DNA of 45,137 nt, taken from a virus. Position 1 is the stretch's first letter. Each line of letters begins with the position of its first letter. Position numbers and translations under genes: made by a program. The stretch is taken from positions 1-45,137 of the IMG/VR virus record IMGVR_UViG_3300020233_000075, one strand, 5' to 3'. The notes beneath the pieces were generated by a model. It saw only the letters and a program-made list of their open reading frames with translations. It did not search any database and was not told where the DNA came from. Positions 2,959 through 41,354 of this stretch are shown here, piece after piece.

Positions 2959-3459
2959 TCAAGCCCGGGTGAGTGCCCTCACGTTCGCAGCGATCGTCTG
3001 GAAAGCGTTCATGCGACTCTCGATCGAACGCATAGCTTTCGCGGATGAATCCTTAGCCGCGACCCGAATCTCATACTCCTCATACATGGTTCCCCCTGCA
3101 TCATGGTCATCTTGACAAGGGCACCTTGGGGAACCACAAACCATCTCTTTCGAAAATGCTTCACGCGTATCCCTGGCCCCCTTGTCCCCTGACCGAACAA
3201 TCTGTGTGATGCACCGATCCCGATGATTCTTCCACCTAGCCTCGGCGCGTGCCGCCTGATCAGCTAAATGGACATGAGTCTCAGTTAGGTTCGCCAACTC
3301 GTCGTCGGCACGCATGATGCGCTCTTCGACCTCTGCCATAGTGACAGGAGGCTGATATGGTAACCCATCATTCGCCTCAACCGTCTGTGATGCACCGTGT
3401 TGGGTATCTGCGTCTGCAACGCTGTACCCATCACCCCATTGCAGTAATGCATGTGTCAT
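2959..3459 (-). CDS. Helical hypothetical protein (166 aa)
   Basis: ATG at 3459 overlaps the upstream stop by four bases (ATGA). From about residue 40 the protein is predicted from composition to be helical and charged (MAEVEERIMRADDELANL, then AARAEARWKNHRDRC). A short Cys segment (CGSPRCPC) interrupts it before a second helical region. No family is recognised. A structural or DNA-associated role cannot be told apart from sequence alone. Confidence 0.75.
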   Translation of the reverse strand: MTHALLQWGDGYSVADADTQHGASQTVEANDGLPYQPPVTMAEVEERIMRADDELANLTETHVHLADQAARAEARWKNHRDRCITQIVRSGDKGARDTREAFSKEMVCGSPRCPCQDDHDAGGTMYEEYEIRVAAKDSSAKAMRSIESRMNAFQTIAANVRALTRA

Positions 3460-3705: not shown

Positions 3706-4830
3706 TTATTCGGTGGCCACCTGCGCCAACAACTCTGCAACCTGCCTGATCTTAGATAGATCCCCAGCCAAGTCGACCTGTACCGCCTGAACCGCACGCT
3801 GCACAGCCGCCTCGATCGAACCGTTGATGAAATCTGCATCTGTTTCAGACACGGCAGCAGCGATACGTGCCACATCTGCATCACTGATATCTACACCAGC
3901 CATCTCTACGTTCTGTGCATGCAACTCAACGGAGACGTTGGGGCTGTTCTCTGTGATCTCATGCATGCGTTTAAATGCGACTGCACCGTCGAAATCTAAG
4001 ACACGTAGCCCAAGTGAATCGATGCCGTACCAGGGGGCAGTGGTCCCCTGCACACGGTAGATCACACCGGTCTTCTGATTTGCAAGTCCGAAGGACATCA
4101 ATCCAAGGGTTTTGACATCGATGTGATCGATAATCCTGTCTGCTTCTGACACTGTAATCTCCTGTGTAGGTGGGGTTGGTGGGGGAACAGGTACTGGCGA
4201 TGGGGGAGTCTCCCCTAAAGCCTCCTTAACTGCTGAGAGCACTAAACCAAGATTCAGTTTGCCTGCATCCCAGTGAGAGTTCGCTATTACCCGTTGATGC
4301 GATGTAACCCACTTGCAACCATACCATGTTCCCTGGTCGAATCGGATCGGGCTGCTAACAGTAGCAAGCACGATGCCTTCATTGGCGCCGTAGGTGCGTT
4401 CTACATATTCGAGGTCAAGGTCACCCCCGACGCTACGAATGAACCTTACCACAGGGGCAACCATCTCTGCCCCGATCCATTCGACATCAGCCCTAGACCA
4501 GCTCTGTGTTTCTGCTGCACGACCCGCTATTTCACATTGTATTGCCCTTGCATGGTTCGTCTCTGGGGCACCCCTGGGACGCCGAAGGGAACGCGCTACC
4601 TTGTCTAACGGGACTGTCTGTAACCTCCACCGCTTGCCTGCACGTGGGTCAATCCACAGGTGCGGGGCACTCGGGTGGCCCTTAGCCAAAGACCTGAATG
4701 ATGCAAGATTAGGAGAGGCCCCTTCGATGGTGTGCAGTACAATCCTCCACGGCAAATCACTGCGACGATAGCTGTTCCCGCGTGGGGTCTTGCCACTGAT
4801 TTGTTCGTACCCTGGGAGTAAAGCGCTCAT
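3706..4830 (-). CDS. Endolysin, N-acetylmuramoyl-L-alanine amidase (Amidase_2 type)
   Basis: Residues 25-200 match the Amidase_2/peptidoglycan-recognition fold: IVLHTIEG with H33, HLWIDP at 57-62, and SHWDAGKL with H186 and K191, the usual zinc and catalytic positions. The enzyme would cut the amide between muramic acid and the stem peptide at lysis. A Pro-rich linker (about 208-223) leads to a C-terminal part of about 150 residues with no recognised cell-wall-binding motif. GAGGG lies five bases before the ATG at 4830. It follows the holin-like and PAS-membrane genes, as a lysis cassette would. Confidence 0.88.
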   Translation of the reverse strand: MSALLPGYEQISGKTPRGNSYRRSDLPWRIVLHTIEGASPNLASFRSLAKGHPSAPHLWIDPRAGKRWRLQTVPLDKVARSLRRPRGAPETNHARAIQCEIAGRAAETQSWSRADVEWIGAEMVAPVVRFIRSVGGDLDLEYVERTYGANEGIVLATVSSPIRFDQGTWYGCKWVTSHQRVIANSHWDAGKLNLGLVLSAVKEALGETPPSPVPVPPPTPPTQEITVSEADRIIDHIDVKTLGLMSFGLANQKTGVIYRVQGTTAPWYGIDSLGLRVLDFDGAVAFKRMHEITENSPNVSVELHAQNVEMAGVDISDADVARIAAAVSETDADFINGSIEAAVQRAVQAVQVDLAGDLSKIRQVAELLAQVATE

Positions 4831-5210: not shown

Positions 5211-5468
5211 TTACTCGCTGTTCTTGTTGGATTGGCGACGCCGGGATGGAGCCTTTTCATCTGTAGGGGCATCATCAGGAGTGTCGTCGCTAGGGGCAGA
5301 TTCGGAAGGCGAGTCATCCGTTTCCTTTACAGGTGCAGGGGCAGGCTTAGCGGCACCGTCTACAGGCAACGCGTAGCCACCCACCACCAGACTGTCGTCA
5401 TCATCAAGTTCGATAACAGCCCCTGCCTTCTTCCCTGCAAGGTTTATGGTAAGCCGATATTGGCTCAT
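5211..5468 (-). CDS. Small acidic-tail protein (85 aa)
   Basis: The first 37 residues look like a compact beta domain (MSQYRLTINLAGKKAGAV, then LDDDDSLVVGGYALPV). The rest is a disordered Pro/Ala/Asp/Ser-rich tail that ends with a basic stretch (SRRRQSNKNSE). GGGAG precedes the ATG at 5468 by six bases. Position between the holin-like gene and the endolysin suggests a lysis or virion-associated role, unproven. Confidence 0.72.
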   Translation of the reverse strand: MSQYRLTINLAGKKAGAVIELDDDDSLVVGGYALPVDGAAKPAPAPVKETDDSPSESAPSDDTPDDAPTDEKAPSRRRQSNKNSE

Positions 5469-5470
5469 GC

Positions 5471-5716
5471 CTATTCTCCCTTAAGTCCATACACGGGCTC
5501 TACAGCTTTTCCAAGCAGCTTGCCCAATTCAGGTCTGCTCTGCTCAATCTTACGAACCACTGCGTAGTAAACACTTCCCGCTACCAATGTGGCGATAGGG
5601 GTGACAGCGTCAGAGCCAAGATCGAACCCCCACTTAGCCGCCACAGCAATAACGGTGCCTACAACGAAAGGCACCACTGTGCGGACAATCGAGGTTCCAT
5701 AATCACTCAAGTTCAT
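5471..5716 (-). CDS. Holin-like two-pass membrane protein (81 aa)
   Basis: Two hydrophobic segments are seen at about residues 13-29 (PFVVGTVIAVAAKWGF) and 38-54 (VTPIATLVAGSVYYAVV), followed by a charged tail. Size and topology fit small actinophage holins, which form the membrane lesion that releases the endolysin. The start overlaps the stop of the PAS-membrane gene by four bases (ATGA), so the two are translationally coupled. Family assignment is by topology and neighbourhood, not by a signature. Confidence 0.65.
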   Translation of the reverse strand: MNLSDYGTSIVRTVVPFVVGTVIAVAAKWGFDLGSDAVTPIATLVAGSVYYAVVRKIEQSRPELGKLLGKAVEPVYGLKGE

Positions 5717-6531
5717 AACTCCTCCAGGAGTTCGACATCAGGGCCTACATCCATCATGGTATCACCATCAGGGAGCAGGTCAAGGGTTCCAACCCACCCT
5801 ACAACATTTCCTGACCCATCATGCAACGGAGACGCAGAACCCCTAACGTTTGCCACCGCAGAAGTGTTGACATTGCGCAGCCGATAAATGGCGGTGAAGT
5901 CCTTATGCTCATCTACAGCCTTTCCCCAAGTCCTAAAAACCCGGTCCCTGTCTACGGGGTGCAGAGACTCTGCCCACCCTTCCCCCTGCGCTTCCTCTAT
6001 AGGGAGCCCTGTCAAACGTGTCCATGCAGGGTTGACATAGGTGCACCAGCCACTATCGTCTGTTTCGAACACCGGCATATCTAATGCACGGTAGATTTGG
6101 CGTATGCGTCCTGTTGCCCCAACAGCTTCTTGTAACACAGATTCTGACATCTCGGAAAGTTTGATGATCTGTAGGTCCACCCCACCGAAGCGTTCCTCTA
6201 AACAGCTATGGATATCGTCCACTCTGGCAATCACTTGATCTTGGCGTGTCCACGCCGCCACTGATCCGTTAGCCAAAATCTCCTGGTTTGCTTTCAGTCC
6301 GTCGAGGCGGTCAACGACTGATGACCCCCCATTAGGTTTGCTTACCTTGTCATCTACGACAGCGCCCACAACCCGCTCACCCCACTCCGTGACAGGCAAG
6401 GCGACTAGACGACGCCATAGCCACTTTGCCGGACGAGTCCTGCTAAGCCCACCTATGGCAGCAACCACTGCTGCAACCCAAATAGTTTGTTCACCAATCT
6501 GTCGCAGCAATGCAACTAACGCCAAAGTCAT
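5713..6531 (-). CDS. Membrane protein with C-terminal PAS domain (272 aa)
   Basis: A single N-terminal membrane segment (about 13-29, IWVAAVVAAIGGL) is followed by a helical linker (about 70-145), consistent with a coiled-coil or signalling helix, and a PAS domain at about 148-252. PAS hallmarks are visible: MPVFETDDSGWCTYVNPAWTR, LTGLPIEEAQGEGWAESLHP and the closing strands around NVVGWVGTLDLL. No kinase, GGDEF or DNA-binding output domain follows. PAS domains sense ligands, redox state, oxygen or light. It is coupled by ATGA overlap to the holin-like gene, so it may act in lysis control; that is inference. Confidence 0.82.
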   Translation of the reverse strand: MTLALVALLRQIGEQTIWVAAVVAAIGGLSRTRPAKWLWRRLVALPVTEWGERVVGAVVDDKVSKPNGGSSVVDRLDGLKANQEILANGSVAAWTRQDQVIARVDDIHSCLEERFGGVDLQIIKLSEMSESVLQEAVGATGRIRQIYRALDMPVFETDDSGWCTYVNPAWTRLTGLPIEEAQGEGWAESLHPVDRDRVFRTWGKAVDEHKDFTAIYRLRNVNTSAVANVRGSASPLHDGSGNVVGWVGTLDLLPDGDTMMDVGPDVELLEEL

Positions 6532-10283: not shown

Positions 10284-13073
10284 TCACCACCCTGACGCAA
10301 GGTATCGGTTTACGAACCCTATGCTAACTCTGGCGTCATCCGCGACAGTCACACAGTCTGCTGCTACGACTATGCAAAGTTCAGCGCACTGGGAAATATC
10401 GAACCAATCGAATGGGCGTCCGTCAGCGGATTCTATGTACCGTAACCCGTTGACGCTCCTTCCCCCTGCAAAGGTGACCTCAGCAACCCGGATACGTGAA
10501 TCTATCGTTATGGTGGAACCTACCGGCAACTGTGGAATCAGTAGCGTTGAGCATGGTTCACGGCAACGCCAGAACTCGTCGTTAGGATCACATGGACACG
10601 GAACCCCTTGAGGCCCCCACGGGTTACGATACGCCTCTATCTTCATGTTCCGTATCTCTTTAGACCCAGCCTTAACCTCTATAAACGAGGTTGCCTCATT
10701 CCATTGAAACGGGTTCCTGTAGGTGCAGCAGGCACGGAACGTGGCCCACGGTTCACAGTAACATGACTCGAACCCTGTAAACGGATCGGGTGGGACAATC
10801 GGGAAAGCCCCGCAGTCAGGTACAAACAGGTTAGAAGGAATGCCAACCTGTTGGATGATGGGTGCCGTTTCCTGCGGGTTGGCTATAGTGATGTTGCAGT
10901 CAGCAGGTGGGAATATGCCGTCTGCCTCAACCCATGACCAACCAATCTTCGTATAGGTCCCATCGGCGTCGAGCAGAATGGGGCAGTCGTTGATCACCTC
11001 GGGGGGACATGCTGTTTCCTGAGCATTCTGCACCAGCACGTCTGCAATGAGGTAGCATGTGCAACAGTTGTTGTTGATGTCCCCATCCCATCGGATAGGT
11101 TCCCACGTCTTAGTATCATTCTTGGCGTCATATACGATACGCACTAAACATGTTTCGCGGCCCTCTATACACGTCTCACAAACTTCGTAACAATCACAGT
11201 TGTTGTTGACAAGGTCCCCGCTCCAATTCACTGGCTCCCATGTCATCACCCCGGTGCACTCGTTGTATATCAACCGTATCTGGCATGGGCGAAGATCCTC
11301 CGGGACACACCCGTTGGGGGGATCTGGGCAGGTACAGTCGCCACCGTTAGTGATGTTTATGGTGCAGCAATCTGGTGGGAAGTTACCGTCGACAGGTGAC
11401 CATCCGGACACAGTCCACGTGCCGTCACCCACTAAGGTAACGTCACAATCGTCACCTGTTCCGCTACCGGGTTGACACGTCTGAGTCTGCTGTTCGTCAC
11501 ATGTCCCAAGGGGATCATTGATTTGCAAAGTGCAGAACTCTGGGACGAACCCTTGGGTAGGATCAAAGTTGACTGCATCCCATGAAAGGTCAGCGTTCAA
11601 ATCAATCAGACACGGGTCACCTGACACCGCAAGGTCTGTTGGGGTCTCCGTCGATGGGTCAAAGGTCTCGGGCTGTGGAACCATCAGACAGTCGTCAGGA
11701 GGGAACCCTAACTCGCTAAGATCCCACCCGTCGGTGCACCAGGTTCCATCATGGCGAACCAGCACCTGACATTCAGGGCGCGCCACCTGACGTTCTATCT
11801 GTTGAGTCCCAATCGTTTCACTACAATCATCACACCAGTCCAACGGGTTACAAAAGATTTCGTCACGCGGGAAAGGAGAGTCGTCGAGACACCAATCCAA
11901 ATCACCGAAAATGTATGGGAGTTCAGATGTGAGAGTGAACTGAACCCGCAGATTCACACACCCGCAGCGACTCGTGCAACAAGTACCACGCCGTTCCAAC
12001 ACCTTAGGGCCATCAGTCAACCCTGTCCGGTGAAACAACCTAGTGAACTCTAAAGGATCAGGACCCACGACCTCCGTGAGGCACCTGCCCTGTGAAAAGT
12101 TGTCAACTGTTTGCGATGCTGCTGGAACAAAGTCAATCAGCCACTGCGCAACAGTTGCATTCATCTCATCGATACGGCTCTGCACATCAGGACACGACGA
12201 CACAACAGTGCTATCCAAGTCAATAGTTACCAGAGCCCCACTGCCAGACGGGGAAGTCGCAACAGACGTCAATGACGCAAACGGGAAAACGAAAACACGT
12301 TCTATCTCCTCCCCCGCCACAGTAAAGCGATACTCCGCCAAACCCTGTGGATCAGCACCATCAAGACAAGTAGGGAGAAAACCGTCCGTATTATTCAACA
12401 CCCCATTCAAATCCGACACAACAAACGTTTGGGCCGCATCATCAACCACTATACGAAACTGTCCACCACCTAAATCGTCAACAGACACAGTAGGGTTACG
12501 GCTAGTCACAAGCTGCACCTCAGACGACTCCGCGATATGGCAAATAGCGTCATCATCCCCAGGGCAACACTTCAACATGTACAAATCACCGAGCTTGCAA
12601 TCCTCACAAGCAGCATTACCTATAAGCGCCTCCGTAAGCCACCTGAGACCATACTCCGCGGCACAACAAGTCTTGGCACGCAACCAACCCGTCACGGTGA
12701 TAGAACGAGCCCCAACCTTCAAAGGACCAAGTGATCCCCCGTTTATAGCCCCCTCACTTATGGTGCGCCGCACCGTCGAGTCGAAACCGACGATATCTTC
12801 AACGAAAAGTCCGGCGAACTCTGCGGATTCGGGTACCGCCGGGTCATACCATGGGGCGTCATCAAGTGCAGGTGACACATAGGCGCCATCTACCCCAGAT
12901 CCCTGGTCACAAAACAGTGTACGGGCCGTAACGCACCCGCAATCCGCAACAAAACTGGTAGATGGGGTCCGAAGCCCAGGGACACCGTTTAGAGGGTCCC
13001 CCCTCAAATACGAAATGACTCTCTCGTTTGACCAAATCTCTGTGTCCTGAAACCGGCCGTACCCTGTCCACAT
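10284..13073 (-). CDS. Large cysteine-rich minor tail protein with six internal repeats (929 aa)
   Basis: The ATG at 13073 overlaps the tape measure stop by one base. The N-terminal 180 residues and the C-terminal part (GSKEIRNMKIEAYRNPWG, STITIDSRIRVAEVTFAGGR) resemble distal-tail-type proteins placed directly after tape measures. Residues 435-732 hold six repeats of roughly 35-45 residues with a pattern C-x-hydrophobic, DGTW, a Trp-containing strand, FPP-x-DC and a hydrophobic end. Cysteines are very frequent (well over 50). The protein likely forms the distal tail ring with decorated outer domains. Disulfides in the assembled virion are plausible but not shown. Confidence 0.8.
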   Translation of the reverse strand: MWTGYGRFQDTEIWSNERVISYLRGDPLNGVPGLRTPSTSFVADCGCVTARTLFCDQGSGVDGAYVSPALDDAPWYDPAVPESAEFAGLFVEDIVGFDSTVRRTISEGAINGGSLGPLKVGARSITVTGWLRAKTCCAAEYGLRWLTEALIGNAACEDCKLGDLYMLKCCPGDDDAICHIAESSEVQLVTSRNPTVSVDDLGGGQFRIVVDDAAQTFVVSDLNGVLNNTDGFLPTCLDGADPQGLAEYRFTVAGEEIERVFVFPFASLTSVATSPSGSGALVTIDLDSTVVSSCPDVQSRIDEMNATVAQWLIDFVPAASQTVDNFSQGRCLTEVVGPDPLEFTRLFHRTGLTDGPKVLERRGTCCTSRCGCVNLRVQFTLTSELPYIFGDLDWCLDDSPFPRDEIFCNPLDWCDDCSETIGTQQIERQVARPECQVLVRHDGTWCTDGWDLSELGFPPDDCLMVPQPETFDPSTETPTDLAVSGDPCLIDLNADLSWDAVNFDPTQGFVPEFCTLQINDPLGTCDEQQTQTCQPGSGTGDDCDVTLVGDGTWTVSGWSPVDGNFPPDCCTINITNGGDCTCPDPPNGCVPEDLRPCQIRLIYNECTGVMTWEPVNWSGDLVNNNCDCYEVCETCIEGRETCLVRIVYDAKNDTKTWEPIRWDGDINNNCCTCYLIADVLVQNAQETACPPEVINDCPILLDADGTYTKIGWSWVEADGIFPPADCNITIANPQETAPIIQQVGIPSNLFVPDCGAFPIVPPDPFTGFESCYCEPWATFRACCTYRNPFQWNEATSFIEVKAGSKEIRNMKIEAYRNPWGPQGVPCPCDPNDEFWRCREPCSTLLIPQLPVGSTITIDSRIRVAEVTFAGGRSVNGLRYIESADGRPFDWFDISQCAELCIVVAADCVTVADDARVSIGFVNRYLASGW
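10878..11771 (-). repeat. Six tandem Cys/Trp-rich protein repeats inside the 929-aa tail protein
   Basis: Approximate residue ranges are 435-465, 488-520, 543-576, 597-632, 642-680 and 697-732. Units 1, 3 and 6 share DGTW/DGTY, a GW pair, FPPDC/FPPADC and a following hydrophobic strand. Units 4 and 5 are the closest pair (TWEPVNWSGDLVNNNC against TWEPIRWDGDINNNCC). The pattern implies stepwise duplication of one small fold. Confidence 0.75.
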
Positions 13074-16000
13074 CAGCGACGCACCCGCGCCGTTGCCAAG
13101 TCCCGTGCAGCAATTTCAGCCTTCACTTGATCTATCCCCACCCCAACTATGTTATAGGTGTTTCCTGGGCCGCCCCCTAACGGGCCGCCACCTGTGCTCC
13201 CCAACACGTTACTACGTGCACCTGCCGCGGACACAGGGGCAGGGGTATCACGTGTCGCACGTGCCAACGTGTCAAACAAACCAGACTGCAAAGCAAGCGC
13301 CATAGCACGCTCAGGGCTATCCAGCGGAATGACCACCTCGTCACCTGCTTCACCAAGCTCCGCGACTATACGGCTGCGGATAACTGCACCGTCTGCCAAC
13401 GCAACATGCACATGGTCACGGTGATCCTGCCACGTGATAGACCCCACCTCCCCGAAGCCCCCACCCCCAGGGCCAGAATAGATACGGCGCACCATGCCTG
13501 CCACAGGAGCAAAAGCGTTGTAAATGTTCAACAGCTGTTGGCTATCGACACTGGGGGTTAGCCCCGTAACGTCCGCGGCACGACCCACGTTGTGTAGCGA
13601 CGGTCTCTGTGTGCCACGAATCAACGAGTTTCGGATTGTAGACGTCACCCGGAACGGGGTGCCGGTTGCCCTGAGATATGTCAATAGTGCAGGGAAACTA
13701 TTACGCTGCCCCTGCATTTCCTGTATGAACTGCATCTCCCGTGACAAATCATCTTTGCCGGGGCCTCCCCTATAGACAGAACCGACTGGCCATGCTGACA
13801 CAGTCCCAAACTTTTGAATGAAAATCTTATCGATCATGGTGTTAGCTGCACTCAGAAACTCGAATGCTGCTTGCGCTGTCTCTTTCGCCGCCTGTTCCAT
13901 TATCCCGGCGCCAAGGTTACTCACTGCGCTGCGAGCAAACATTGTGTCTATCGAACTTGCAGTAATCGCGAACACTGCGTCGATCGCTGACTGGGAAATA
14001 GAGTTGACAGAATCCCCGATACCAGATGTGTTCGCTACCGCGGCAAGCATCCCATCAAAAGCAGGGTCGCCGATCTCATCCCTAGGGTCTAACGTGTCCT
14101 CAGGACCCAAACGGCCTAGACGTAGTGCCTCAAACTGGTCACGCCCTATTCTGCTCATCGCATCAAGAGGAAGAACCCCCTCCCCGGGTTGCAGACGTGC
14201 AACAACTTCCCCGCTCTGCGGGGACCCAATCTGCGATGTTGCCATACCGGGCTGGTTGACAATGCCACCCGTGTGGAAACTAGGGAGAACCATATCCAAA
14301 CCGAGGGTGCTCGATGCTGCATTAACTGTTGTTTTGAAAGGACCCCAGAACAGGGTTCTGAATATTGCAACCTGTTTAGCAACAGATGCTGTCGTTGCCG
14401 TCACTGCCCCTGCAACCACTCCAGACATTTGTTCCGCCCCCCGCCCAAGCTCATCAATCGTCTTACCCATGTCCCTGTTGCTCTGCGCAACAGCATCTGC
14501 TGTGGTCTGTGCCGCAGTGGTAATAAGGTCATAATCGGTTACAAGCTCGTCGAGCCTCATCCCGTTAACGCTAGCATCGCTGGGAGTCATTAGATTCGCG
14601 ATGGCAGGAAGCCCAGAATTGGCAATCAAACCGAGAACCTTGCTCCTTTCAACAGGGTCAAGTATTCCTTCAATGACGCTCTGAACAGACGGATCTAGTT
14701 CAGACAAGTCTATCCCCTCAGCAAACGCTTCTGCCCATATGGCAGCAGCCTCTTTACCCTTGGTCGCCATAACGGTATCAAGCTGATCGAGCACAGTAGA
14801 AGAGTCGATTGTGGTGCCTTCAAGATTGATCACGCCAAGCTCCTCCCCGATCTTAGCTACTTCAGTCTTCAATGCTTCTGAGTCCAATTCTGATGCAAGT
14901 GCAGCAAGCCTAGGGGTAAGGGGAATGGTGATTGTCTCACCCCGCATGAAAGCATCAATCACTTCCTGAATCTGTCCTACGCTAAGACCAGCAGTGATAT
15001 CCTCGAAATTCGCATCCAAATCTACAGTTGACGGGATTGTGATAGCAGGAACCTCAATTTGACCCTCTTCCAGATCAATAGTATCTAGCAACAGGCCCCC
15101 GGGGAGATTCGACAACAAGAAATCAGGGTCTTTGATAGATTCGAGGTCAACAGCAATAGTTGTCCCCTCAACAACGCTAAGCCCATCGGCAAAGGCCAGT
15201 GCCGTGTCACGTCTAACTACCCGCTTAAATTCGGGGCTGAACTCCCCAGTGGGAATAAACTGTCCCGTTACCCCAAGATCGGCAAAGAACGCTTTCCTTG
15301 ACTCGAACTGTTCCTCAAAGAACTGTCTCTGCTGCTCAGCAGCGTCATCCACCTGACCGGTTTCGAGAAGCAACTCTACGGGGAACTGAAACTCGGTGCC
15401 CTCAGTAAGAATCTTGACTAGCCCAGGGATCAGTTCATCTGCGACATCTTGTTCGTGTAGCGCATCCGCGATTCCCGTCTTAAGATTATCGTAGGCCTCT
15501 GTCGCAACATCTATACTCCCAGAGGCATCAACCATACTGGCCACAAGACTCTCGTCTATCTCCTTCCCTATCGACTCAACAAAATCCCTGAACTTTTTCG
15601 CTTCAGGTGAGGCCGCTCCCAAGAGTTCCGCAAAGTTAGGGAATCCCTTGTCGCCTTTAAACCCAGCGATCCCACTTTGAACATCCGCCAAAGTATCGAG
15701 TGCTTTACGTGAAGCCTCAATAGGGTCTTTATCCAACAAACCTAACGACTCTGCTGCCCCGTCGATAGCCTCTGAAACATCCCTATATTGCTGCGTAAGG
15801 TTTTTGGTTACCTCCAGCAACTCCTCTTCTGCGGCAGCAGCCCTTTCCAACGCAGGTTTCGCAAATTCTGCTGCAAGCCGGGCGTTACTCATCTCTACCC
15901 CGAATTCTTGCAGCTGAAGTAAAGTGTTAGCCAACGCCAGATTAGCCTTTTTACTATCCTCCCCGAAAAGTTCGAAGATGGGGATTTCACCCAAATCCTT

Positions 16001-19000
16001 TGTAAGCAACGCATTCAAACTTTCGAGCTTGCCTGTAGCTTGTTCTGTGGATGTCACCAACTTTAAGAAAACTTTACTTTGATCTACTGTCCCATCTTCA
16101 CTCTTCTTGAATGCGATGCTTAGGTTGACTGCGCCGTCGTCGAGGAGAAGCAGTTCTTCAAATAGTCGCGCTGCGCTCGCTGCCGTCGCATCAAATGCCA
16201 GATCTATCTGCGCCTCGGGGATTCTCGCACCCCCGCGCCCACCACCCGCATACAGCCTCTGTTTTACATCTACCCTATCAATTAGATCATCGAATACGTC
16301 CCCTAGTTTCCCTGCTTCCTTTGCCCCTGCGATGCGAAGTTTGAACATGTTTGTAATGATGTTGTCGAACACATCTTCAAACGCGCCGTCACTTTTAACG
16401 GCAGCATCAACCAGTTCAGTTAGGCTAGCCCCAAATTGTGTTGCTGCAATGTCTAACGTGTCCACCTGCTGCAAAAGTTTTGCAGTTGATACAAGCCCGC
16501 CCTTAGTCAAAGAGTTGAACGCAGACCCGAATGCGTCGAAAGCCTCCCTAAAGGTGATCATCCCGTCGCTATACGCTGACTGTAGAGTCCCTGTGGCGTC
16601 AATCAGTTTGAACGTCTCCTTCCTAGTGTTGAACAACTGTGTGGCAAGTGCGCCGAACACGGTTATGACCGTTGTGATTATGCCAACAACTGCTCCCCCT
16701 ATTGCGAAAGCGAACGCAATGTTTGTTATAGCTGAACCTAAAGCAGTTAGTTTCCCTTCAAGGTTGGTGGATTCTGCGATCATTTTCCCTAATGAGAAAC
16801 CTGCAATCGCTGTCGTCAACCCTATGAGGGCTTTGCGTCCCACCTGGGCTGATTGCATGGCCCTCGACAACTTGTTTACACCTATCGACATGCGTAGCAG
16901 CCCCGTGGATGCGAGGCGTGCCCCTGCCCCTATACGGTTGAATACGCCACCCAACACAGACATCTTCGCAGCGCCAACAACTGCCTTGTCGGAGAGGTTC
17001 CCCATCTTTATGGAAGTGGTTAATAGCGCCGTTGTGGTAGCCTGCAAGGGGGCTAGTAACGCTCCTTTGATGCGTCCCCCTAGTGTTGTGGTAGCAACAG
17101 CAAACTCGAATGCTTTAACCTTCAATATGACGAAAGCTGCCCCTACCGCCACCAAAACTGCTGCAAAGTTTCTACCCAATAGGGTGGTAAGGGGTTTGAT
17201 GAAATCGGCTATGGCCCCTAAAGCATCCAGGAATGAACCCAAGGCTTCCACAGCTGTAGTGCCTACAGATTTCACGAAGTCACTGGTGATGAAATCATTG
17301 GTTGTTTCTATGAAACCTTCAATGAGAGGTAGCAGCGCTTCGAAGATGGAGACAGCGTCTTTACCTGCGTCGACAATAAAGTCAAATGCACCGCTGGCCC
17401 CCGACGAACCTGTGGTGACTATAAACTCTTTGACCTTCACAGCCATATCCGCGATGAACTGTATAACCTTGCGGATCGCCCCGTTGCTGATCAGAACCTG
17501 TAGACCTCTGTTGAAGCCTTCGATGACCCCTGCCAGACGGTCCCCGACGGCTTCCGCTAACTCATCTATCCCACCTGTTGTGTCCCCAAGGATCGTTCCG
17601 AACAGAGCCAAAACGGGTTTGATGAACAGTTTGATGATGTCGAAGGTAGATCCAAGTGCGTTTCTAAGTTCCTCAGAACTTGACACCATACGTTGGAAGA
17701 ATGTGATCAGCCCAAATATGGCTAACCCGAAAAGTTTCGTGGGGGTGAGCAACAAAGTCAGTCCCCCAATGAGTAGCCCTATGATTTTGCTTAGAAAGAA
17801 GAACCCTGGGCCGAGGGCTGCAAGTGACGCCGCGACCTTAACTATTTGGCTCGTAAGCTTTTGGTTGGCTTCCACGAAGTCTGTTACGACGTTTATTCCG
17901 TCAGCGATCCTGCGGATACCTACACTTAACGCCCCTGCGAATGTGAGCCCAACTTCGATAGCTAAACCTTCTGTCGCAGACTTGAGTAGTAGGTAGGCTC
18001 CCCGCAAGCCTTCCAACTGCTTTTCCTGGATCTGTGCTGCCCGCCCAGCAGAGTTAAGGTTTTGGTTAGTGAGTTCGTCAAGGCTCTGTGCCCCCTGGGA
18101 AATAAGTGCCAGCATCCCGGGTCCTGCACGCTGCGCAAATATCTTCATGGCCTGCGCAGCGGTAACCGCGTTGACACGAGAGTCTGACATTACCTTATTG
18201 AAGCTTTTCAGGATACCGTTAGTGTCAAAGACGTCCACCCCTATATCTTTGAATGCTTGCGCGTTGTCCTCAAGGAACCGGTTCGAATCAAGTCCCGTTA
18301 TCGTTTCGAATACGCCAGCAACATTCCCCCCTTTCTCAGCGACCTCCCCCAATATGTCGTTAAGGTCACGTATGTCGCCGCGGCTTCCACGCACCTCTAT
18401 GCCGAAGTCACGCATCTTCCCTTCGAACTGTCCAACAATGTCCACCAACGGCAACATGTTGTCAGACGCATCGAATACCACTATGCCCAACTCGTCGATA
18501 ACCTCTTTCGCTTGTGCCGAAGGGTTGATCAGCTTAGAGATGATGCCTCGAAGCGACGTACCTGCAATAGAGTTGCCCGATACAACCGCGTGCCCGTTGC
18601 GGCGAACAATCAGAAGATGGTTGGGGACATCTGCACAAAACACTTCATCGTCGTAATCTACCCATCGCTCTGCACGCACGTCCACGACGGGGGGAACAGG
18701 AATGTATAGTAGGTCAGCAGAATCCTTGTCACCGCTCCCTGAGGCGGCATAGCTGAGATAGTTGACGTCCATTCCCATCACGTCGCCTGCATAGACGCTA
18801 CCCCATTTGCTTGACCCCTGCTCCTTTACCCACATACGGTGATTTGGGGTGACCATAAGATCCACGTTGCTGTCTGCAACGTGATACATGCGACCCTTGT
18901 AGTCATACCTGATTAAGGCATTAGGTTTACAGTATTCAACCTGATGTGTTTCAGGGTTCACAGTCGCGAATTCTGTGTTATAGCTGACGTCCTGCCAACG

Positions 19001-19810
19001 CACAAACCCGTTACGAGTCAACACCTGTGTATCGCGGTCGTAACAAGCTTTCAAACCTGCGTTTGACAGAACCCCTAGTGCAGCAGTTGTCTCTTCGAAC
19101 GTCAACCCGGCGGCAGCAGCAACAGGAGCCACGAACTTGAAGCTGGCCGCCAACTGTGTGAGGTCAGTGTTGGAGTTGGTGAACGTCTGCGTCAACACAT
19201 CTGCGACACGCCCAGCGTCCCTAGCCTCCAAGTTGAAAGCCCGGATGGCGATGGATGTGATGTCTGCGGCTTCTGCTAGCTCTACCTGCCCTGCCGATGC
19301 CAAAGACAGCGTGCTGGCTGTAGCCGCCAGAATCTCTTCTGTGTCGAACCCTGCCAAAGCGAAGCTCTGCATAGCTTCGCTAGCCTCTACAGCAGTGAAC
19401 TCTGTGGTACGGCCAAGCATACGTGCAGTTTCACTCAACTCGGTCATACGCCGCGTTATCTGCGCAAGGTTGTCCCCAACCCCCGTAGTCAAAGCTTCTA
19501 CACGCAGCATCCCTGCTTCGAATTCTGTGGTGAGTTTGATAACCCCACCCAGGGCGATGCCTAACGGGATCGTAAAGTTGCGTGCAAAGAACCGTCCGAG
19601 TGACTGAACCCCCGTTTTGACACGGTTCAGGCTAGCAAGCCCCGCAGAGAACGCCCCTGTAATCTGGCGTCTAACGTTGAATGCAAGATCACGAAATGGA
19701 CGCGACGCCCCCTGGGCTGCACTCTTAGCCTCGCGGCGAACTTTCCCAGCGAACCCCGTGGTGCTAGGAAGAATTCTGATTACCGCTGCGCCAATTACTG
19801 CGCTGGCCAT
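13073..19810 (-). CDS. Tape measure protein with intein and C-terminal peptidase-M15-like segment (2245 aa precursor)
   Basis: Residues 90-255 and 414-470 carry the TP901-type tape measure signature (FEAGMLRVEALT, TEFTAVEASEAMQ, AALGVLSNAGLKA, then SIAGTSLRGIISKL), interrupted by an intein at 256-413. Several hydrophobic segments (about 640-700 and elsewhere) suit membrane passage during DNA injection. Near the C-terminus SLHNVGRAADVTG (H2073, D2080) and HRDHVHVA (H2133, H2135) form a peptidase M15-like zinc site, probably for local peptidoglycan cutting. The spliced protein of about 2087 residues would set a tail length near 300 nm if the usual 0.15 nm per residue holds. Confidence 0.93.
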   Translation of the reverse strand: MASAVIGAAVIRILPSTTGFAGKVRREAKSAAQGASRPFRDLAFNVRRQITGAFSAGLASLNRVKTGVQSLGRFFARNFTIPLGIALGGVIKLTTEFEAGMLRVEALTTGVGDNLAQITRRMTELSETARMLGRTTEFTAVEASEAMQSFALAGFDTEEILAATASTLSLASAGQVELAEAADITSIAIRAFNLEARDAGRVADVLTQTFTNSNTDLTQLAASFKFVAPVAAAAGLTFEETTAALGVLSNAGLKACYDRDTQVLTRNGFVRWQDVSYNTEFATVNPETHQVEYCKPNALIRYDYKGRMYHVADSNVDLMVTPNHRMWVKEQGSSKWGSVYAGDVMGMDVNYLSYAASGSGDKDSADLLYIPVPPVVDVRAERWVDYDDEVFCADVPNHLLIVRRNGHAVVSGNSIAGTSLRGIISKLINPSAQAKEVIDELGIVVFDASDNMLPLVDIVGQFEGKMRDFGIEVRGSRGDIRDLNDILGEVAEKGGNVAGVFETITGLDSNRFLEDNAQAFKDIGVDVFDTNGILKSFNKVMSDSRVNAVTAAQAMKIFAQRAGPGMLALISQGAQSLDELTNQNLNSAGRAAQIQEKQLEGLRGAYLLLKSATEGLAIEVGLTFAGALSVGIRRIADGINVVTDFVEANQKLTSQIVKVAASLAALGPGFFFLSKIIGLLIGGLTLLLTPTKLFGLAIFGLITFFQRMVSSSEELRNALGSTFDIIKLFIKPVLALFGTILGDTTGGIDELAEAVGDRLAGVIEGFNRGLQVLISNGAIRKVIQFIADMAVKVKEFIVTTGSSGASGAFDFIVDAGKDAVSIFEALLPLIEGFIETTNDFITSDFVKSVGTTAVEALGSFLDALGAIADFIKPLTTLLGRNFAAVLVAVGAAFVILKVKAFEFAVATTTLGGRIKGALLAPLQATTTALLTTSIKMGNLSDKAVVGAAKMSVLGGVFNRIGAGARLASTGLLRMSIGVNKLSRAMQSAQVGRKALIGLTTAIAGFSLGKMIAESTNLEGKLTALGSAITNIAFAFAIGGAVVGIITTVITVFGALATQLFNTRKETFKLIDATGTLQSAYSDGMITFREAFDAFGSAFNSLTKGGLVSTAKLLQQVDTLDIAATQFGASLTELVDAAVKSDGAFEDVFDNIITNMFKLRIAGAKEAGKLGDVFDDLIDRVDVKQRLYAGGGRGGARIPEAQIDLAFDATAASAARLFEELLLLDDGAVNLSIAFKKSEDGTVDQSKVFLKLVTSTEQATGKLESLNALLTKDLGEIPIFELFGEDSKKANLALANTLLQLQEFGVEMSNARLAAEFAKPALERAAAAEEELLEVTKNLTQQYRDVSEAIDGAAESLGLLDKDPIEASRKALDTLADVQSGIAGFKGDKGFPNFAELLGAASPEAKKFRDFVESIGKEIDESLVASMVDASGSIDVATEAYDNLKTGIADALHEQDVADELIPGLVKILTEGTEFQFPVELLLETGQVDDAAEQQRQFFEEQFESRKAFFADLGVTGQFIPTGEFSPEFKRVVRRDTALAFADGLSVVEGTTIAVDLESIKDPDFLLSNLPGGLLLDTIDLEEGQIEVPAITIPSTVDLDANFEDITAGLSVGQIQEVIDAFMRGETITIPLTPRLAALASELDSEALKTEVAKIGEELGVINLEGTTIDSSTVLDQLDTVMATKGKEAAAIWAEAFAEGIDLSELDPSVQSVIEGILDPVERSKVLGLIANSGLPAIANLMTPSDASVNGMRLDELVTDYDLITTAAQTTADAVAQSNRDMGKTIDELGRGAEQMSGVVAGAVTATTASVAKQVAIFRTLFWGPFKTTVNAASSTLGLDMVLPSFHTGGIVNQPGMATSQIGSPQSGEVVARLQPGEGVLPLDAMSRIGRDQFEALRLGRLGPEDTLDPRDEIGDPAFDGMLAAVANTSGIGDSVNSISQSAIDAVFAITASSIDTMFARSAVSNLGAGIMEQAAKETAQAAFEFLSAANTMIDKIFIQKFGTVSAWPVGSVYRGGPGKDDLSREMQFIQEMQGQRNSFPALLTYLRATGTPFRVTSTIRNSLIRGTQRPSLHNVGRAADVTGLTPSVDSQQLLNIYNAFAPVAGMVRRIYSGPGGGGFGEVGSITWQDHRDHVHVALADGAVIRSRIVAELGEAGDEVVIPLDSPERAMALALQSGLFDTLARATRDTPAPVSAAGARSNVLGSTGGGPLGGGPGNTYNIVGVGIDQVKAEIAARDLATARVRR
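13391..13723 (-). other. Peptidase M15-like domain in tape measure C-terminus
   Basis: Residues about 2030-2140 contain FRVTSTIRN, SLHNVGRAADVTG and DHRDHVHVA, matching the H...D...H zinc-ligand arrangement of D,D-carboxypeptidase/VanY-type M15 enzymes. The usual downstream Glu/Asp base is not certain from reading. Enzymatic domains in tape measures normally open the cell wall during DNA entry. Confidence 0.7.
18572..19045 (-). mobile_element. Mini-intein in tape measure protein (158 aa)
   Basis: The insert starts with Cys256 (CYDRDTQVLTRNGFV, block A) and ends at Asn413, with Ser414 as the +1 residue. Block B is VTPNHRMWV (T and H at intein positions 66 and 69). Block F is DDEVFCADVPNHLLIV and block G is AVVSGN. 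The penultimate residue is Gly rather than the usual His. At 158 residues there is no room for a homing endonuclease. It splits the highly conserved tape-measure stretch NAGLKA/SIAGTSLRG. Confidence 0.92.
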
Positions 19811-20592: not shown

Positions 20593-21105
20593 CTACAAAG
20601 GGCTACCCGAGTCAAACGTTGCAGACAAGATAGTTACCCGCGGATCTAGGATAAGTGACCGGATCATAGCATCCCAAAAGAACGGATTAGGAGAATTCCC
20701 AGGACTATTAACAGATTTGGAGTATCTGATAACCCCACCGCTGGTAGGGTATCGCAGTAACTTCTTTCGCTTTGGCCTTATGACGCGCGCCCGGGTTCCA
20801 TAGTGGACAGCCAAAGCATATTTAACGTTGACTGCTATCTTCACCTGTATGCCCTGGAGGGTGGGTTTAACGGAAATTATTCCTATGCTGCTGCGCAGAA
20901 CCCCTGAGCGGGACGCCTCTTCGGAGCTGCGTGAGATACGGACAGGGGCAATCGATTTAGCGTACGCTACCGCGATAGTGGCAACAGATGTGATGAATCG
21001 CCCCACTACCCCCGATGGGGTGTTGAGTAGCACGTTTAGGGCGATAGGGTCAAGGACAACGTTGACGCTGACCCCCCTGGTGGCGGAACCGATTACGTCT
21101 GGCAT
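20593..21105 (-). CDS. HK97-gp10-like head-tail/tail terminator-region protein (170 aa)
   Basis: ATG at 21105 (MPDVIGSATRGVSV) overlaps the upstream stop by one base (TAATG). The motif order IAPVRISRSSEEA, SGVLRSSIGI, VKYALAVHYGTRARVIRPKR and KLLRYPTSGG is that of the HK97 gp10 family, which sits at the head-tail connection or tail end. It lies between the intein-bearing connector and the chaperones, the standard order. Confidence 0.85.
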   Translation of the reverse strand: MPDVIGSATRGVSVNVVLDPIALNVLLNTPSGVVGRFITSVATIAVAYAKSIAPVRISRSSEEASRSGVLRSSIGIISVKPTLQGIQVKIAVNVKYALAVHYGTRARVIRPKRKKLLRYPTSGGVIRYSKSVNSPGNSPNPFFWDAMIRSLILDPRVTILSATFDSGSPL

Positions 21106-22601
21106 TAGCAGCAGTTGGGGAGTTCTATAGACATGTCCCAGTACAGCCCTGCGCAGCCCCCTTGTGGACATTTAGGTACCATTTCACCCCAGCCCACGTC
21201 GATGCAGCCTGTTTGTTCCCCGTTGATGGACCAAAAGTTCCCTTGGCTGTATTCGCTGAGGACGCAGCACCACAGTACCCACATGTCCACCATCAGTTGT
21301 TCAGATGCTGTCTGCATTTCAGATTTTGGTGGGAGGGCAGCCGTGTCCCCTGCCTGTGTGGGGGCAGGCCAACATTCTCGCATCAATTTAAGACGAATGT
21401 CCAGACGCCCTGTGATGTCGTTGCATCTGCCTGTGGCTCTGTTGAAGTCCCCTATCTCGTCTGAGAAACCAATAGTAGGTTTGATTCCTACAGGGTAGAC
21501 TGCAAGGTAGTCACAGTTTCCTGTTAAGACACCCCCATCCAACACGAAAGCTCGTGTCCCAGGGACTGACGCACAGAACACTTCCTCAACACGGGTTGTG
21601 TCGCTAACATCGACTATGCGCCAACGGGGGGTAATGGCTTTCTGCTCCCTAACCCGGGATCTGTGATCGCTGCGCACCAGTAGGTCTTTCCGCAGCGTCG
21701 ACGCGTTGAGGGATACCGAAAATATTTGTGTGTGGGTGTCCTTGGTGTTCAGGTAGCCTTCCATTGCAACTGTTGACGTCCCTATCCCTAACCTGTAACA
21801 GATCTCGCGAACACGATTGAGGTGCCCACGATTGGACGATAGGAGCCTCACAGCGCCGTTCCTGTGACTTACGAGCCCATCGGCAGCGATATACCCTGCG
21901 AGCCACCCAGCGAGCCACGGAAGCTCATAGGAGGGGCTAGGGGCGGCTTTCCAATCTAAGGGGAGGCGCGGAGGTGTGGTCCCATCGTCAGACAGTCCCC
22001 CATCTGTCTCGCTGCCGTCTTGTTCGAACCATTCTGCTAGCGATGCGGTTACCCCGTTAACAGTGATTTCCACATCCCATGATTCTGTAATACCTTCCCC
22101 GAATACGATTCCTGCACACACGGCATCAGGGTCCATGCTCCCCTCGTACACTTCACCTGTTTCGCTGGCAAGCACATCCCCAAGTTGCAGTTGCGCGGTT
22201 GTTGCTTCAACAAGGGAACGGGCTTCGCTGTGCGATACGCGGCTGTCGAGTAGCCAACGGTGATCGCCTGTAGCGAAAATCTCCATGGTCTCGTTGGAAC
22301 GCGCAAGCACGACTTTATGGAGGCGCTGCGCCCCGAAACTGTGGACAGGGGCCTTCACCCACTGCCCGTCTGTTGTCATCAACTCAACAACCTGTCCTGC
22401 CAGCGACCCTATGGGGTGGACCCCTTCGGACGTCACGATTTGTGTTTCCGCGGCGAAGCAGCAGTCATCCGGGGGTTCGCACCAATAGGTGAAGCAGTCC
22501 TTGGGTGCGCCGAGAGTGGTGTTATCTAGACAGGAGCATGCCGCATCCAAAAGCTCCTGTAGGAGGTCTGCGATAACCGTTACATTATCTGGAGGGGGCA
22601 T
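21105..22601 (-). CDS. Head-tail connector/tail completion protein interrupted by an intein (498 aa precursor)
   Basis: The extein is residues 1-47 plus 363-498 from the ATG at 22601 (a TTG at 22607 is possible). The joined protein of about 183 residues reads YWCEPPDDC then CDYLAVYPVGIKPT, NRATGRCNDITGRLDIRLKL and VDMWVLWCCVLSEY. Its position between the adaptor and the gp10-like gene, size and Cys-rich character fit the small connector proteins of actinophages. The intein uses Cys363 as +1 residue. The mature protein needs splicing to be functional. Confidence 0.8.
   Translation of the reverse strand: MPPPDNVTVIADLLQELLDAACSCLDNTTLGAPKDCFTYWCEPPDDCCFAAETQIVTSEGVHPIGSLAGQVVELMTTDGQWVKAPVHSFGAQRLHKVVLARSNETMEIFATGDHRWLLDSRVSHSEARSLVEATTAQLQLGDVLASETGEVYEGSMDPDAVCAGIVFGEGITESWDVEITVNGVTASLAEWFEQDGSETDGGLSDDGTTPPRLPLDWKAAPSPSYELPWLAGWLAGYIAADGLVSHRNGAVRLLSSNRGHLNRVREICYRLGIGTSTVAMEGYLNTKDTHTQIFSVSLNASTLRKDLLVRSDHRSRVREQKAITPRWRIVDVSDTTRVEEVFCASVPGTRAFVLDGGVLTGNCDYLAVYPVGIKPTIGFSDEIGDFNRATGRCNDITGRLDIRLKLMRECWPAPTQAGDTAALPPKSEMQTASEQLMVDMWVLWCCVLSEYSQGNFWSINGEQTGCIDVGWGEMVPKCPQGGCAGLYWDMSIELPNCC
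21516..22460 (-). mobile_element. Intein with LAGLIDADG homing endonuclease (315 aa)
   Basis: It starts at Cys48 (CFAAETQIVTSEGVHPIG, block A), has block B ATGDHRWLL, two LAGLIDADG-type motifs (CAGIVFGEGI and WLAGYIAADG), block F VEEVFCASVPG and ends LDGGVLTGN before Cys363. The two endonuclease motifs imply a potentially active homing enzyme that copies the intein into empty alleles. The penultimate residue is Gly, not His, as in the tape measure intein, and the C-terminal VFCA-x-VP segments of the two inteins are alike. Confidence 0.93.
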
Positions 22602-22603
22602 AG

Positions 22604-23839
22604 TCAACTAGTCCATGTTTTTCCGCCGCCGCCAATTCCACCTGGGCGGTCTGGACGGTACATTCGTGCCCTGCGTTGAATGCGGTGCGGATTAACTGTT
22701 TGCAGGAACAGGTCCACCTCGTAGATCCCCACTTTACCTTGATCTAAGAAGTCGAGTGGATCTGCGAATGCCATATCTATGCCTTCACGTGACAATTCTT
22801 TGAGGCGTTGCGGAAGTATACATCCATCGGCCCCACAGTTGTCTAATGCTATCTGGCAAGCGAATTTCGCTGCGGCGATACGTCCATCGGCCGGGACGGG
22901 TTTGCCATACAGGTAGGTGATGCACCATGACCCGATAGGGGTGCGGACCCCCACTTGGGTTTGGAGCTGCACGACTGTAGATGCCCCTCCGGTAAGTGAA
23001 ACATCTGCAACAGCCACCACGGGCGCTGACGTGAGTTCAACCGCGGTGAACTCGACCACATATGGGGTTGTTCCCCCTACGTCACCAGGGCCACCTGTGA
23101 CGGCCACGGAGCCTACCCCAACGTTGCTGAGTGACTCTAGGGCGCTTTGGACTGCTGCTGCGGTGTCTGTAGCGTTCAGGACAGCAGTCTCTGTTGTCGA
23201 GGTCAGGTTGGCTGGCGGTCCAACTGTAGCGGTAACTTCTATAGACCACTGTCCGCCTGTTGCGTCAACAGTGATCTGCTGTATCTCATTTACGTTTTGG
23301 ACGCATTCGCCTAAGAAGTTGTTGCTACACGGCCACGTTCCCCCATCAATGCGGCACACGCGACGATACGCTTGGATACGATATGCGGACGGGTCTAGTA
23401 CCTCTCCGTCTATCAGTATCTCAACAATGTCGTTGACCGTAGAGGCAAGATCCACGCATGGGATATCGCATTTGTTTGAGCAGCATGAACCACTCAGGTT
23501 GATTATCCCAAAATCAGGATCTCCACTAGTCGCTATCAGGTGTCCGTCGCTGCCCGCAAGGGATGACCCCCGGAACCTAACCCACCAGTCCGATGGGACA
23601 AGGTTCCAGAACTGTTCAGACCCGTCGTTGCAGCACCCGGAGTTGTTTCCCATGCACGGCTGCCATGTCCGCTCACAAACACCCGGGAACTGACGCCCCG
23701 AGAGGCGGTAAAGGATCGCGGAAGCAAAAGCAATAGCATCAGTCAAATCGTAGGCGGGGTCTAGCCCTGGGCAGCACGCAAGGACAGCATCAGAGTCAGT
23801 CCACGGATCGCAGGGGACCTGAACAGGGGGAGAAGCCAT
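22604..23839 (-). CDS. Head-to-tail adaptor with an inserted repeat domain (411 aa)
   Basis: Residues 1-180 read like actinophage head-tail adaptors (SDAVLACCPGLDPAYDLTDA, ILYRLSGRQFPGVCERTWQP), and the fold resumes at about 300 (GSWCITYLYGKPVPADGR, then FACQIALDNCGADGC and LPQRLKELSREGIDM). Between them, residues 184-298 are a separate domain also found in the genes at 27502 and 34823. Typical family members are near 200-300 residues, so the excess is the insert. G-runs directly abut the ATG at 23839, so the ribosome site is unusual. Confidence 0.82.
   Translation of the reverse strand: MASPPVQVPCDPWTDSDAVLACCPGLDPAYDLTDAIAFASAILYRLSGRQFPGVCERTWQPCMGNNSGCCNDGSEQFWNLVPSDWWVRFRGSSLAGSDGHLIATSGDPDFGIINLSGSCCSNKCDIPCVDLASTVNDIVEILIDGEVLDPSAYRIQAYRRVCRIDGGTWPCSNNFLGECVQNVNEIQQITVDATGGQWSIEVTATVGPPANLTSTTETAVLNATDTAAAVQSALESLSNVGVGSVAVTGGPGDVGGTTPYVVEFTAVELTSAPVVAVADVSLTGGASTVVQLQTQVGVRTPIGSWCITYLYGKPVPADGRIAAAKFACQIALDNCGADGCILPQRLKELSREGIDMAFADPLDFLDQGKVGIYEVDLFLQTVNPHRIQRRARMYRPDRPGGIGGGGKTWTS
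22946..23290 (-). repeat. Inserted TGGPG domain, copy 1
   Basis: This codes for about 115 residues beginning NEIQQITVDATGGQW and ending near TVVQLQTQVG, with core motifs ALESLSNVGVGSVAVTGGPG, GGTTPYVVEF and DVSLTGGASTV. It sits inside the adaptor without disturbing its flanks. Copies 2 and 3 lie at 27688-28014 and 35567-35887. Confidence 0.85.
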
Positions 23840-39501: not shown

Positions 39502-39535
39502 GGGGAGATTAGCCCCCAGGGGGCAACTCATCCCC
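39502..39535. terminator. Possible bidirectional hairpin between convergent genes
   Basis: The gap between the plus-strand gene and the lysozyme gene contains the near-palindrome GCCCCCAGGGGGC (39512-39524), flanked by GGGGA (39502-39506) and TCCCC (39531-39535), which can extend the stem. Convergent genes meet here, so a shared terminator would be sensible. No T-run is present on either strand. Confidence 0.4.
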
Positions 39536-40247
39536 AGCAGGAGCGTGACGCATTCCACGGGCTAGTGCCACCCTGTGCGATCATCTGTGCAGAAACCCGG
39601 GCGTTCGCTGATGGGCTGCTCCATGAGCCATAGTCATATCCTAAACGGGCAGCGCGCCCAGACCAAAACCGTGGGAGATGCTGAAACAGCCCTAATGCTC
39701 CACTAGACCGGTTCACAGCCTGGGGGTTAAGTGTCGACTCACACCTAGCGATCCTAACCAGTAGATTTCCTGAAACTCCGAACTCTGCTGCTGCGGCCCT
39801 AATGGTGCTCTCCACTGATCCCGTTGGTGCAGTGGGGGTAGCAGGTACTGTCGTGGGGGGGTGCGTAGTGGGTGGTGTAGTGACACGTTTAGGTGGTGGC
39901 GGTGGGGCGAAGTACGCTGTACATGGGCGCCCGTCCCCGTTGGTGTCGATACCAGAAGTATCTGTCTCGGGGGGGCTAGCATCCATCCACTTTTGTGCGT
40001 CCGCTTGACTCTGCCAGGTTGCACAACCGGGGGCGGTTATGGCAACGGGGACTGTTGTCGTTGCCTCTGTGGTGCTAGGGATAGGTTCCGTTGTCGTTGG
40101 GACGCTGTCTACGTATGTGGCTGACGTGGGTGCTGGTTCTGTGACAACAGGAGGGGAAGCAACATCAGGGTTCTTGGGAATCTGAACAAAAACGAAGATA
40201 ACGACAGGAAGCGCGCCTATAAGGGCGAACTTGGTGTAGTGTTTCAT
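39528..40247 (-). CDS. Membrane-anchored or secreted lysozyme with excalibur-like domain (239 aa)
   Basis: A signal or anchor segment (about 6-23, KFALIGALPVVIFVFVQI) is followed by a Thr/Pro-rich linker. Residues 75-109 resemble an excalibur calcium-binding motif (CATWQSQADAQKW ... DTNGDGRPC), then a second Pro/Thr linker. A transglycosylase/SLT-like domain fills 145-239 (RIARCESTLNPQAVN with E170, SSGALGLFQHLPRFW). Wall-attached muralytic enzymes of this layout are typical of actinobacteria. It may help release or superinfection control, or be a morphogenesis enzyme. It lies apart from the main lysis region. Confidence 0.8.
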   Translation of the reverse strand: MKHYTKFALIGALPVVIFVFVQIPKNPDVASPPVVTEPAPTSATYVDSVPTTTEPIPSTTEATTTVPVAITAPGCATWQSQADAQKWMDASPPETDTSGIDTNGDGRPCTAYFAPPPPPKRVTTPPTTHPPTTVPATPTAPTGSVESTIRAAAAEFGVSGNLLVRIARCESTLNPQAVNRSSGALGLFQHLPRFWSGRAARLGYDYGSWSSPSANARVSAQMIAQGGTSPWNASRSCWG

Positions 40248-40932: not shown

Positions 40933-41140
40933 GGTGTGTCCCCCAATCATCTGCTTCCATAACTTGTCGAGCAGACACAGATGCGCCATCCCTCGTGCCA
41001 TGGGTTGACAGCACACAGCCATCCACGAGTACGCACCAAGCACCTCTCGCATTTTTGCCGATCGTTATAGGTGATTTGTGCATCATGCCTCCTGCGAGGA
41101 TCGCCTCGTTGCGGAGCGTCTCGGGGGTCACGTCACTCAT
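40925..41140 (-). CDS. Small hypothetical protein (71 aa)
   Basis: It begins MSDVTPETLRNEAILAGGMM at the ATG at 41140, on an exact copy of the junction element. The middle (PITIGKNARGAWCVLVDGCV) appears beta-rich. It ends GTHRE, without the GGDDE tail, because the following start uses a different leader. No family is recognised. Confidence 0.73.
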   Translation of the reverse strand: MSDVTPETLRNEAILAGGMMHKSPITIGKNARGAWCVLVDGCVLSTHGTRDGASVSARQVMEADDWGTHRE

Positions 41141-41354
41141 CGTCGCCACCACCGGCGCCTGGACGGAGACTAACCCACGGGCCGTCATCAAGACGCACCT
41201 CGTAGCCGTCATCACGCATAGCTACCGACAGTTGGCACCCATCGGAGGTCTCAAAGCCAACGCCGAGAAACACATCCCGTAACGTAACGTCCATCACTTC
41301 GGTGTCGATGACGGCCTTGTACGGGCCATCCGGCTCACTCAATGTGATTATCAT
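41133..41354 (-). CDS. Small beta-rich protein (73 aa)
   Basis: ATG at 41354 is preceded by AGGAGAAG and overlaps the stop of a 15-codon frame by four bases (ATGA). The sequence MIITLSEPDGPYKAVIDTEV, then YEVRLDDGPWVSLRPGAGGG, has an alternating pattern typical of a small beta sheet. It ends GGGDDE. Function unknown. Confidence 0.75.
   Translation of the reverse strand: MIITLSEPDGPYKAVIDTEVMDVTLRDVFLGVGFETSDGCQLSVAMRDDGYEVRLDDGPWVSLRPGAGGGDDE

Follow-up and report, generated by a model that had tools for sequence, protein, structure and literature searches.

The window analysed here, the whole of a 45,137-bp linear IMG/VR virus record (IMGVR_UViG_3300020233_000075), encodes a 272-amino acid PAS protein with a predicted membrane helix, and the gene of this protein overlaps that of a small holin-like protein with two transmembrane segments (2-TM). 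The gene pair is real, conserved and unusual, and from the sequence a sensing role is a candidate only. It is proposed, as a possibility that we hold to be evenly balanced, that the PAS protein, anchored in the membrane and facing the cytoplasm, is the one-helix partner of the two-helix holin-like protein, and that the state of its PAS domain would shift the moment of lysis. Two relatives of the PAS protein were found by pattern scans of IMG/VR, which detect close kin only: L010 on IMGVR_UViG_3300031565_000146 (38 kb), with 59% identity over the aligned parts, and L012 on IMGVR_UViG_3300025310_000004 (171 kb), with 54% identity over the aligned parts. The features of the window that matter for the argument are the following.

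5713..6531, minus strand: PAS protein gene, an open reading frame with an ATG start, 272 amino acids
6451..6519, minus strand: marginal N-terminal membrane helix, residues ~5-27, from hydropathy and charge, predicted N-out/C-in
5776..6099, minus strand: PAS domain, residues ~145-252, from Pfam, NCBIfam, AF2 and Foldseek against the PDB
5713..5724, minus strand: ATGA start/stop overlap and GGAGGA ribosome site inside the PAS gene, both also present in L010 and L012
5471..5716, minus strand: 2-TM holin-like protein, 81 amino acids, phrog_10742 family (1.2e-15)
5211..5468, minus strand: small conserved gene, 85 amino acids, with syntenic homologs in L010 and L012
4847..5053, minus strand: small conserved gene, 68 amino acids, MGCGCxK near its start, with syntenic homologs in L010 and L012
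3706..4830, minus strand: amidase-type endolysin (phrog_880 endolysin, 4.9e-4), position unconserved

The 272-amino acid protein matches PAS_3 (PF08447; 3.5e-14, 53.3 bits against a gathering threshold of 25.6) and PAS (PF00989; 3.6e-13, 49.9 bits against a gathering threshold of 22.6) in Pfam, and the NCBIfam model sensory_box (TIGR00229) scores above its cut-off in this protein and in both L010 and L012. AF2 gave a pLDDT of 33 from the single sequence; the model used instead was built on an alignment of 10 sequences (seven PAS domains from bacteria besides the three phage proteins) and shows a PAS fold at residues ~145-252 with a pLDDT of ~87-95 (about 93). Foldseek comparison of this PAS model with the PDB returned mostly PAS/LOV domains (best E ~1e-7), the top match being the FAD PAS of NifL. 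The PAS domain claimed by the sequence-only reading is thus borne out by family scores above the cut-offs, a confidently predicted fold and structural matches, and structure prediction, which that reading had named as a check, returned the PAS fold. Alignments show the domain to have retained the core motifs seen in the PAS domains of bacterial sensors; the PAS domains nearest to it belong to bacterial sensor kinases and related signalling proteins.

The protein is laid out as the membrane helix (residues ~5-27), a basic patch (31-41), a linker with an NGGSS motif (67-71), a long helix (93-149), the PAS domain (~145-252) and a variable C-terminal tail. A phrog_9869 match to the NGGSS motif is weak, spans 19-24 residues only and was set aside. 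In the AF2 model a single continuous helix of ~57 residues (93-149) leads into the PAS domain, which agrees with the signalling-helix-like linker described earlier. No kinase, HD, GGDEF or DNA-binding domain was found in the 272-amino acid protein, again as had been read from the sequence, and since the tail that follows the PAS domain is not conserved among the window, L010 and L012 proteins, no output domain is concealed there. The single membrane segment of the earlier account is recovered as one N-terminal helix, though it is marginal by hydropathy: the best 19-residue Kyte-Doolittle window scores 1.35 in the window protein, <1.2 in L010 and 1.42 in L012. The charge around this helix in the three proteins is 0, -1 and -1 before it and +3, +3 and +4 after it, a bias that predicts an N-out/C-in topology with a cytoplasmic PAS domain.

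The ATGA overlap between the PAS gene and 5471-5716 is exact, with GGAGGA just upstream, and the same overlap of PAS and 2-TM genes, again with GGAGGA inside the PAS gene, is found in L010 and L012, so that the coupling first seen in the window holds in both relatives. The 2-TM protein is a member of phrog_10742, a family whose function is unassigned in PHROG. In the Streptomyces phages VWB and Hiyaa the endolysin has a homolog of this protein directly downstream, and because the family adjoins endolysins there the label "holin-like" is fair; from these relatives we infer that the 2-TM neighbour is a lysis protein. In Streptomyces phage KimJongPhill a short coil-plus-membrane-helix protein comes next after the 2-TM homolog, and the endolysin is ~1.5 kb off on the other strand. 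No PAS protein was seen beside the phrog_10742 proteins of VWB, Hiyaa and KimJongPhill. In Pfam no curated holin family matches the 2-TM proteins above its cut-off; Phage_holin_10 gives sub-cut-off matches (0.0018 and 0.01) in the L010 and L012 2-TM proteins only.

All three phages share one gene order, stretching from the large minor tail gene as far as the homolog of 2959-3459 (BLAST of neighbours), and with identities of 59% (L010) and 54% (L012) the PAS gene is at or near the top of its block for conservation. Along the protein, identity is 66% in the PAS segment and 48-58% outside it. Synonymous sites between the window and its relatives are saturated or nearly so, and dN/dS was taken from the L010-L012 pair, in which a dN of 0.19 and a dS of 0.97 give a ratio of about 0.2; the PAS gene is under purifying selection. 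Because two other phages keep the pairing, under purifying selection, it is more than chance; as the three phages are related, a single evolutionary event may account for it.

In isolate phages (tblastn, 50,697 records) the full protein was not found, the PAS part gave only a chance match (E=9) and the N-terminal part only chance-level Bacillus matches. Scans with the N-terminal part only and with the PAS alignment return just the L010 and L012 phages, and no version with another C-terminal domain was seen at the sensitivity of the pattern scans, which reach close kin only. A genome scan gave no prophage copy, its matches being the PAS parts of bacterial proteins, and the N-terminal part was not found in plasmids. 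Another candidate, L011, found on a viral-classed contig, is a multi-PAS kinase of bacterial type; it has no whole-protein kinship and was rejected as a relative.

The late genes lie on the minus strand, running from the putative capsid gene (~36 kb) through the tape measure and minor tail genes to the PAS gene and the 2-TM gene, and continuing with the two small genes and the amidase gene (3706-4830). The PAS and 2-TM genes stand where the tail operon ends, and their products are probably late. The amidase has weak tblastn matches to Streptomyces and Brevibacterium endolysins, and its reading frame opens ~0.64 kb downstream of the point where the holin-like gene stops, the two small genes filling the gap. 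The spacing of about 0.6 kb noted earlier is therefore correct for the window, but it does not extend to the relatives, in which the amidase homologs (40-41% identity; G001:3989-4636, plus strand, and G002:149063-149704, minus strand) are 16-20 kb from the PAS gene, on the opposite strand and near the terminase. The window amidase is inserted between genes that are adjacent to each other in the relatives. Since this arrangement is kept in neither relative, the adjacency is unusable as evidence for a lysis cassette and was rejected as such.

Far away from the lysis genes, the window also encodes, at 39528-40247, a protein that has a signal-like N-terminus and a Transglycosylase SLT domain (3e-9). 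The large minor tail proteins of the relatives (L010:23-3865 and L012:1704-5750) have 4-5 S-layer homology (SLH) domains; these are absent from the window homolog (10284-13073) and are possibly a swapped cell-wall-binding module. The tape measure gene (13073-19810) contains a probable intein, an intein-like insertion read by eye (CYDRDTQVLTRNG...VVSGNS), and 21105-22607 has a probable intein with a LAGLIDADG_3 domain (2.7e-7). A repeated gene-start module (reverse of CGTCACTCATCGTCGCCACC) occurs in 5 copies at 431-1655 and in 10 at 41131-44395, many small genes sharing a near-identical upstream site and VATMSD-like first codons. The end of the contig (45047-45130) is a run of 12-bp repeats, where the assembly likely broke off; with one relative at 171 kb, the record probably represents only part of a larger genome.

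Among arrangements studied by experiment, the nearest is the LysF1a/LysF1b pair of mycobacteriophages Girr and NormanBulbieJr, in which LysF1a, with two transmembrane domains (2-TMD), and LysF1b, with one (1-TMD), are both required for efficient lysis (PMC13056207). LysF1b is oriented N-out/C-in with basic residues after its TMD, the lysF1a and lysF1b genes overlap by ATGA, LysF1a/LysF1b deletions change the timing of lysis by delaying or crippling it, and a LysF1b-like protein is said to be present in about 80% of M. smegmatis phages (PMC13056207). The window pair likewise joins a small 2-TMD protein to a 1-TMD protein through an ATGA overlap near the tail genes, and the charge bias of the PAS protein, with basic residues after the helix, fits LysF1b, although its hydropathy is marginal. 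It differs in that the gene order is reversed and in that a PAS domain is added to the 1-TMD protein, whereas LysF1b (~124 amino acids) has a charged helix and no PAS domain. BLASTP of the window pair against gp31 and gp32 of the F1-cluster phage Fruitloop gave no similarity, so the resemblance is one of shared build and not of family membership; Fruitloop gp32 matches DUF2746 (3.1e-13), which the PAS proteins do not. Fruitloop gp32 (L034:8911-9285) is placed in phrog_404, labelled minor tail protein, a label that may mislead; it comes right after the annotated holin gene, in the place that LysF1b takes. By analogy with the LysF1 pair, a lysis role for the window gene pair is probable.

In the mechanism that we propose, the PAS domain would dimerise the PAS protein, and its state would depend on a small molecule that it binds, on a redox change or on a host protein. 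Nothing follows the PAS domain, so a signal would have to go back along the helix towards the membrane or be handed on by direct contact with the partner; the long N-terminal helix would relay the state both to the membrane segment and to the holin-like protein, and this relay would shift the moment of lysis. Several observations speak against a lysis partner: the membrane helix is weakly hydrophobic, the 2-TM protein matches no curated holin family above cut-off, BLASTP finds no similarity to LysF1a/LysF1b beyond chance, the relatives have their amidase elsewhere, and the three phages are kin and perhaps reflect one evolutionary event.

LOV photoreceptors are recognised by a GxNCRFLQ-type flavin cysteine on E-alpha, and heme PAS domains of the FixL/DosP type by a conserved His on F-alpha. 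When the three phage proteins are aligned, the stretch equivalent to the LOV motif reads GEGWAESLHP/GEGWAEALYP, with no Cys, and there is no invariant His in DRxRVFxxWxxAV. LOV-type light sensing by the PAS protein is unlikely because the cysteine motif is missing, light being one of the cues suggested by the sequence-only reading, and FixL/DosP-type heme sensing is unlikely because the conserved F-alpha histidine is missing. The input may be a NifL-type flavin, another small ligand, redox, or plain protein binding without a ligand. If it is the last, the same lysis complex would form with the PAS domain as a ligand-free dimerisation or docking module that clusters the helices and aids oligomerisation of the holin-like protein, an explanation that we find unlikely on balance but a serious contender. 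PAS domains are common dimerisation units. The lack of a conserved heme or LOV cofactor motif is in keeping with such a module, as is the fact that LysF1b-like partners function with just a charged helical cytoplasmic domain (PMC13056207); yet the domain keeps the sensor-type core motifs and no other part of the protein is as well conserved, which is more than a bare dimeriser might need.

It is improbable that the protein serves host signalling instead of lysis, the membrane-bound PAS domain docking on a PAS-containing sensor kinase or chemoreceptor of the host and rewiring it during infection; the kinship of the domain with PAS domains of bacterial sensor kinases and signalling proteins and the want of an output domain of its own would suit that role, but the end of a late tail block, with a holin-like overlap in all three phages, is an odd site for a takeover gene. 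Slightly less probable still is a virion or tail-associated protein, for although the PAS gene directly follows the tail genes in all three phages, the protein has a predicted membrane helix and a predicted cytoplasmic PAS domain, its gene overlaps a membrane-protein gene, and it shows no similarity to tail families.

Returning to the PAS protein as a lysis partner, the RI antiholin of T4 is a phage-coded sensor that acts in lysis inhibition: it binds the T holin and delays lysis on cue (PMC8385771, PMC11413866); unlike the PAS protein it acts on the periplasmic side and has no PAS domain, and no homology is claimed. VqmA of vibriophage VP882 is a phage-coded PAS-family receptor tied to the lysis choice (PMC8284805, PMC10426928), but it is a DNA-binding quorum-sensing receptor on the lysis-lysogeny switch and not a membrane partner of a holin. 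By Foldseek, the models of two "PAS domain" proteins of uncultured Caudovirales (A0A6J5QVN9 and A0A6J5NY05, ~200 amino acids) align with that of the window PAS protein over nearly their full length. Foldseek against predicted viral proteins also matched R9ZZL0 of Cellulophaga phage phi19:1 and S0A2B2 of phi18:3, assigned by protein length to gp108 and gp090, respectively. These two and their homolog phi38:2 gp11 (phrog_31932/phrog_10199; loci L036:5703-6425, L037:39102-39620 and L039:3411-4046) combine an N-terminal or near-N-terminal hydrophobic helix with a PAS-like predicted fold and lie in lysis regions: phi19:1 gp108 overlaps a 3-TM gene whose similarity to holins is weak and has a lysozyme ~1.5 kb away, phi18:3 gp090 has an endolysin ~0.6 kb away, and phi38:2 gp11 overlaps a peptidase-type endolysin gene. 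They have no Pfam PAS match, and hhalign found no sequence homology to the window PAS protein; homology was rejected, leaving a resemblance of predicted folds, and the Cellulophaga proteins may be a lead for convergent use, not evidence for the window PAS family. More tentatively, and with rather more doubt than belief, we suggest a PAS-gated lysis clock that would sense how the host cytoplasm stands in metabolism or redox and would itself hold back or release the holin-like partner, membrane-anchored PAS-like proteins of lysis regions having possibly arisen more than once, in these phages and in the Cellulophaga phages.

No coupling between a holin and a PAS protein of a phage is described in the literature searched. 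How phages set the moment of lysis and adjust it to the state of the host is a long-standing question for which few molecular sensors are known (T4 RI, in superinfection). If the wiring of a PAS domain to a holin-like protein is true, it would be a cytoplasmic, possibly metabolic, input into lysis, and the gene pair suggests that three related viruses may tune the moment at which the host bursts to an intracellular signal.
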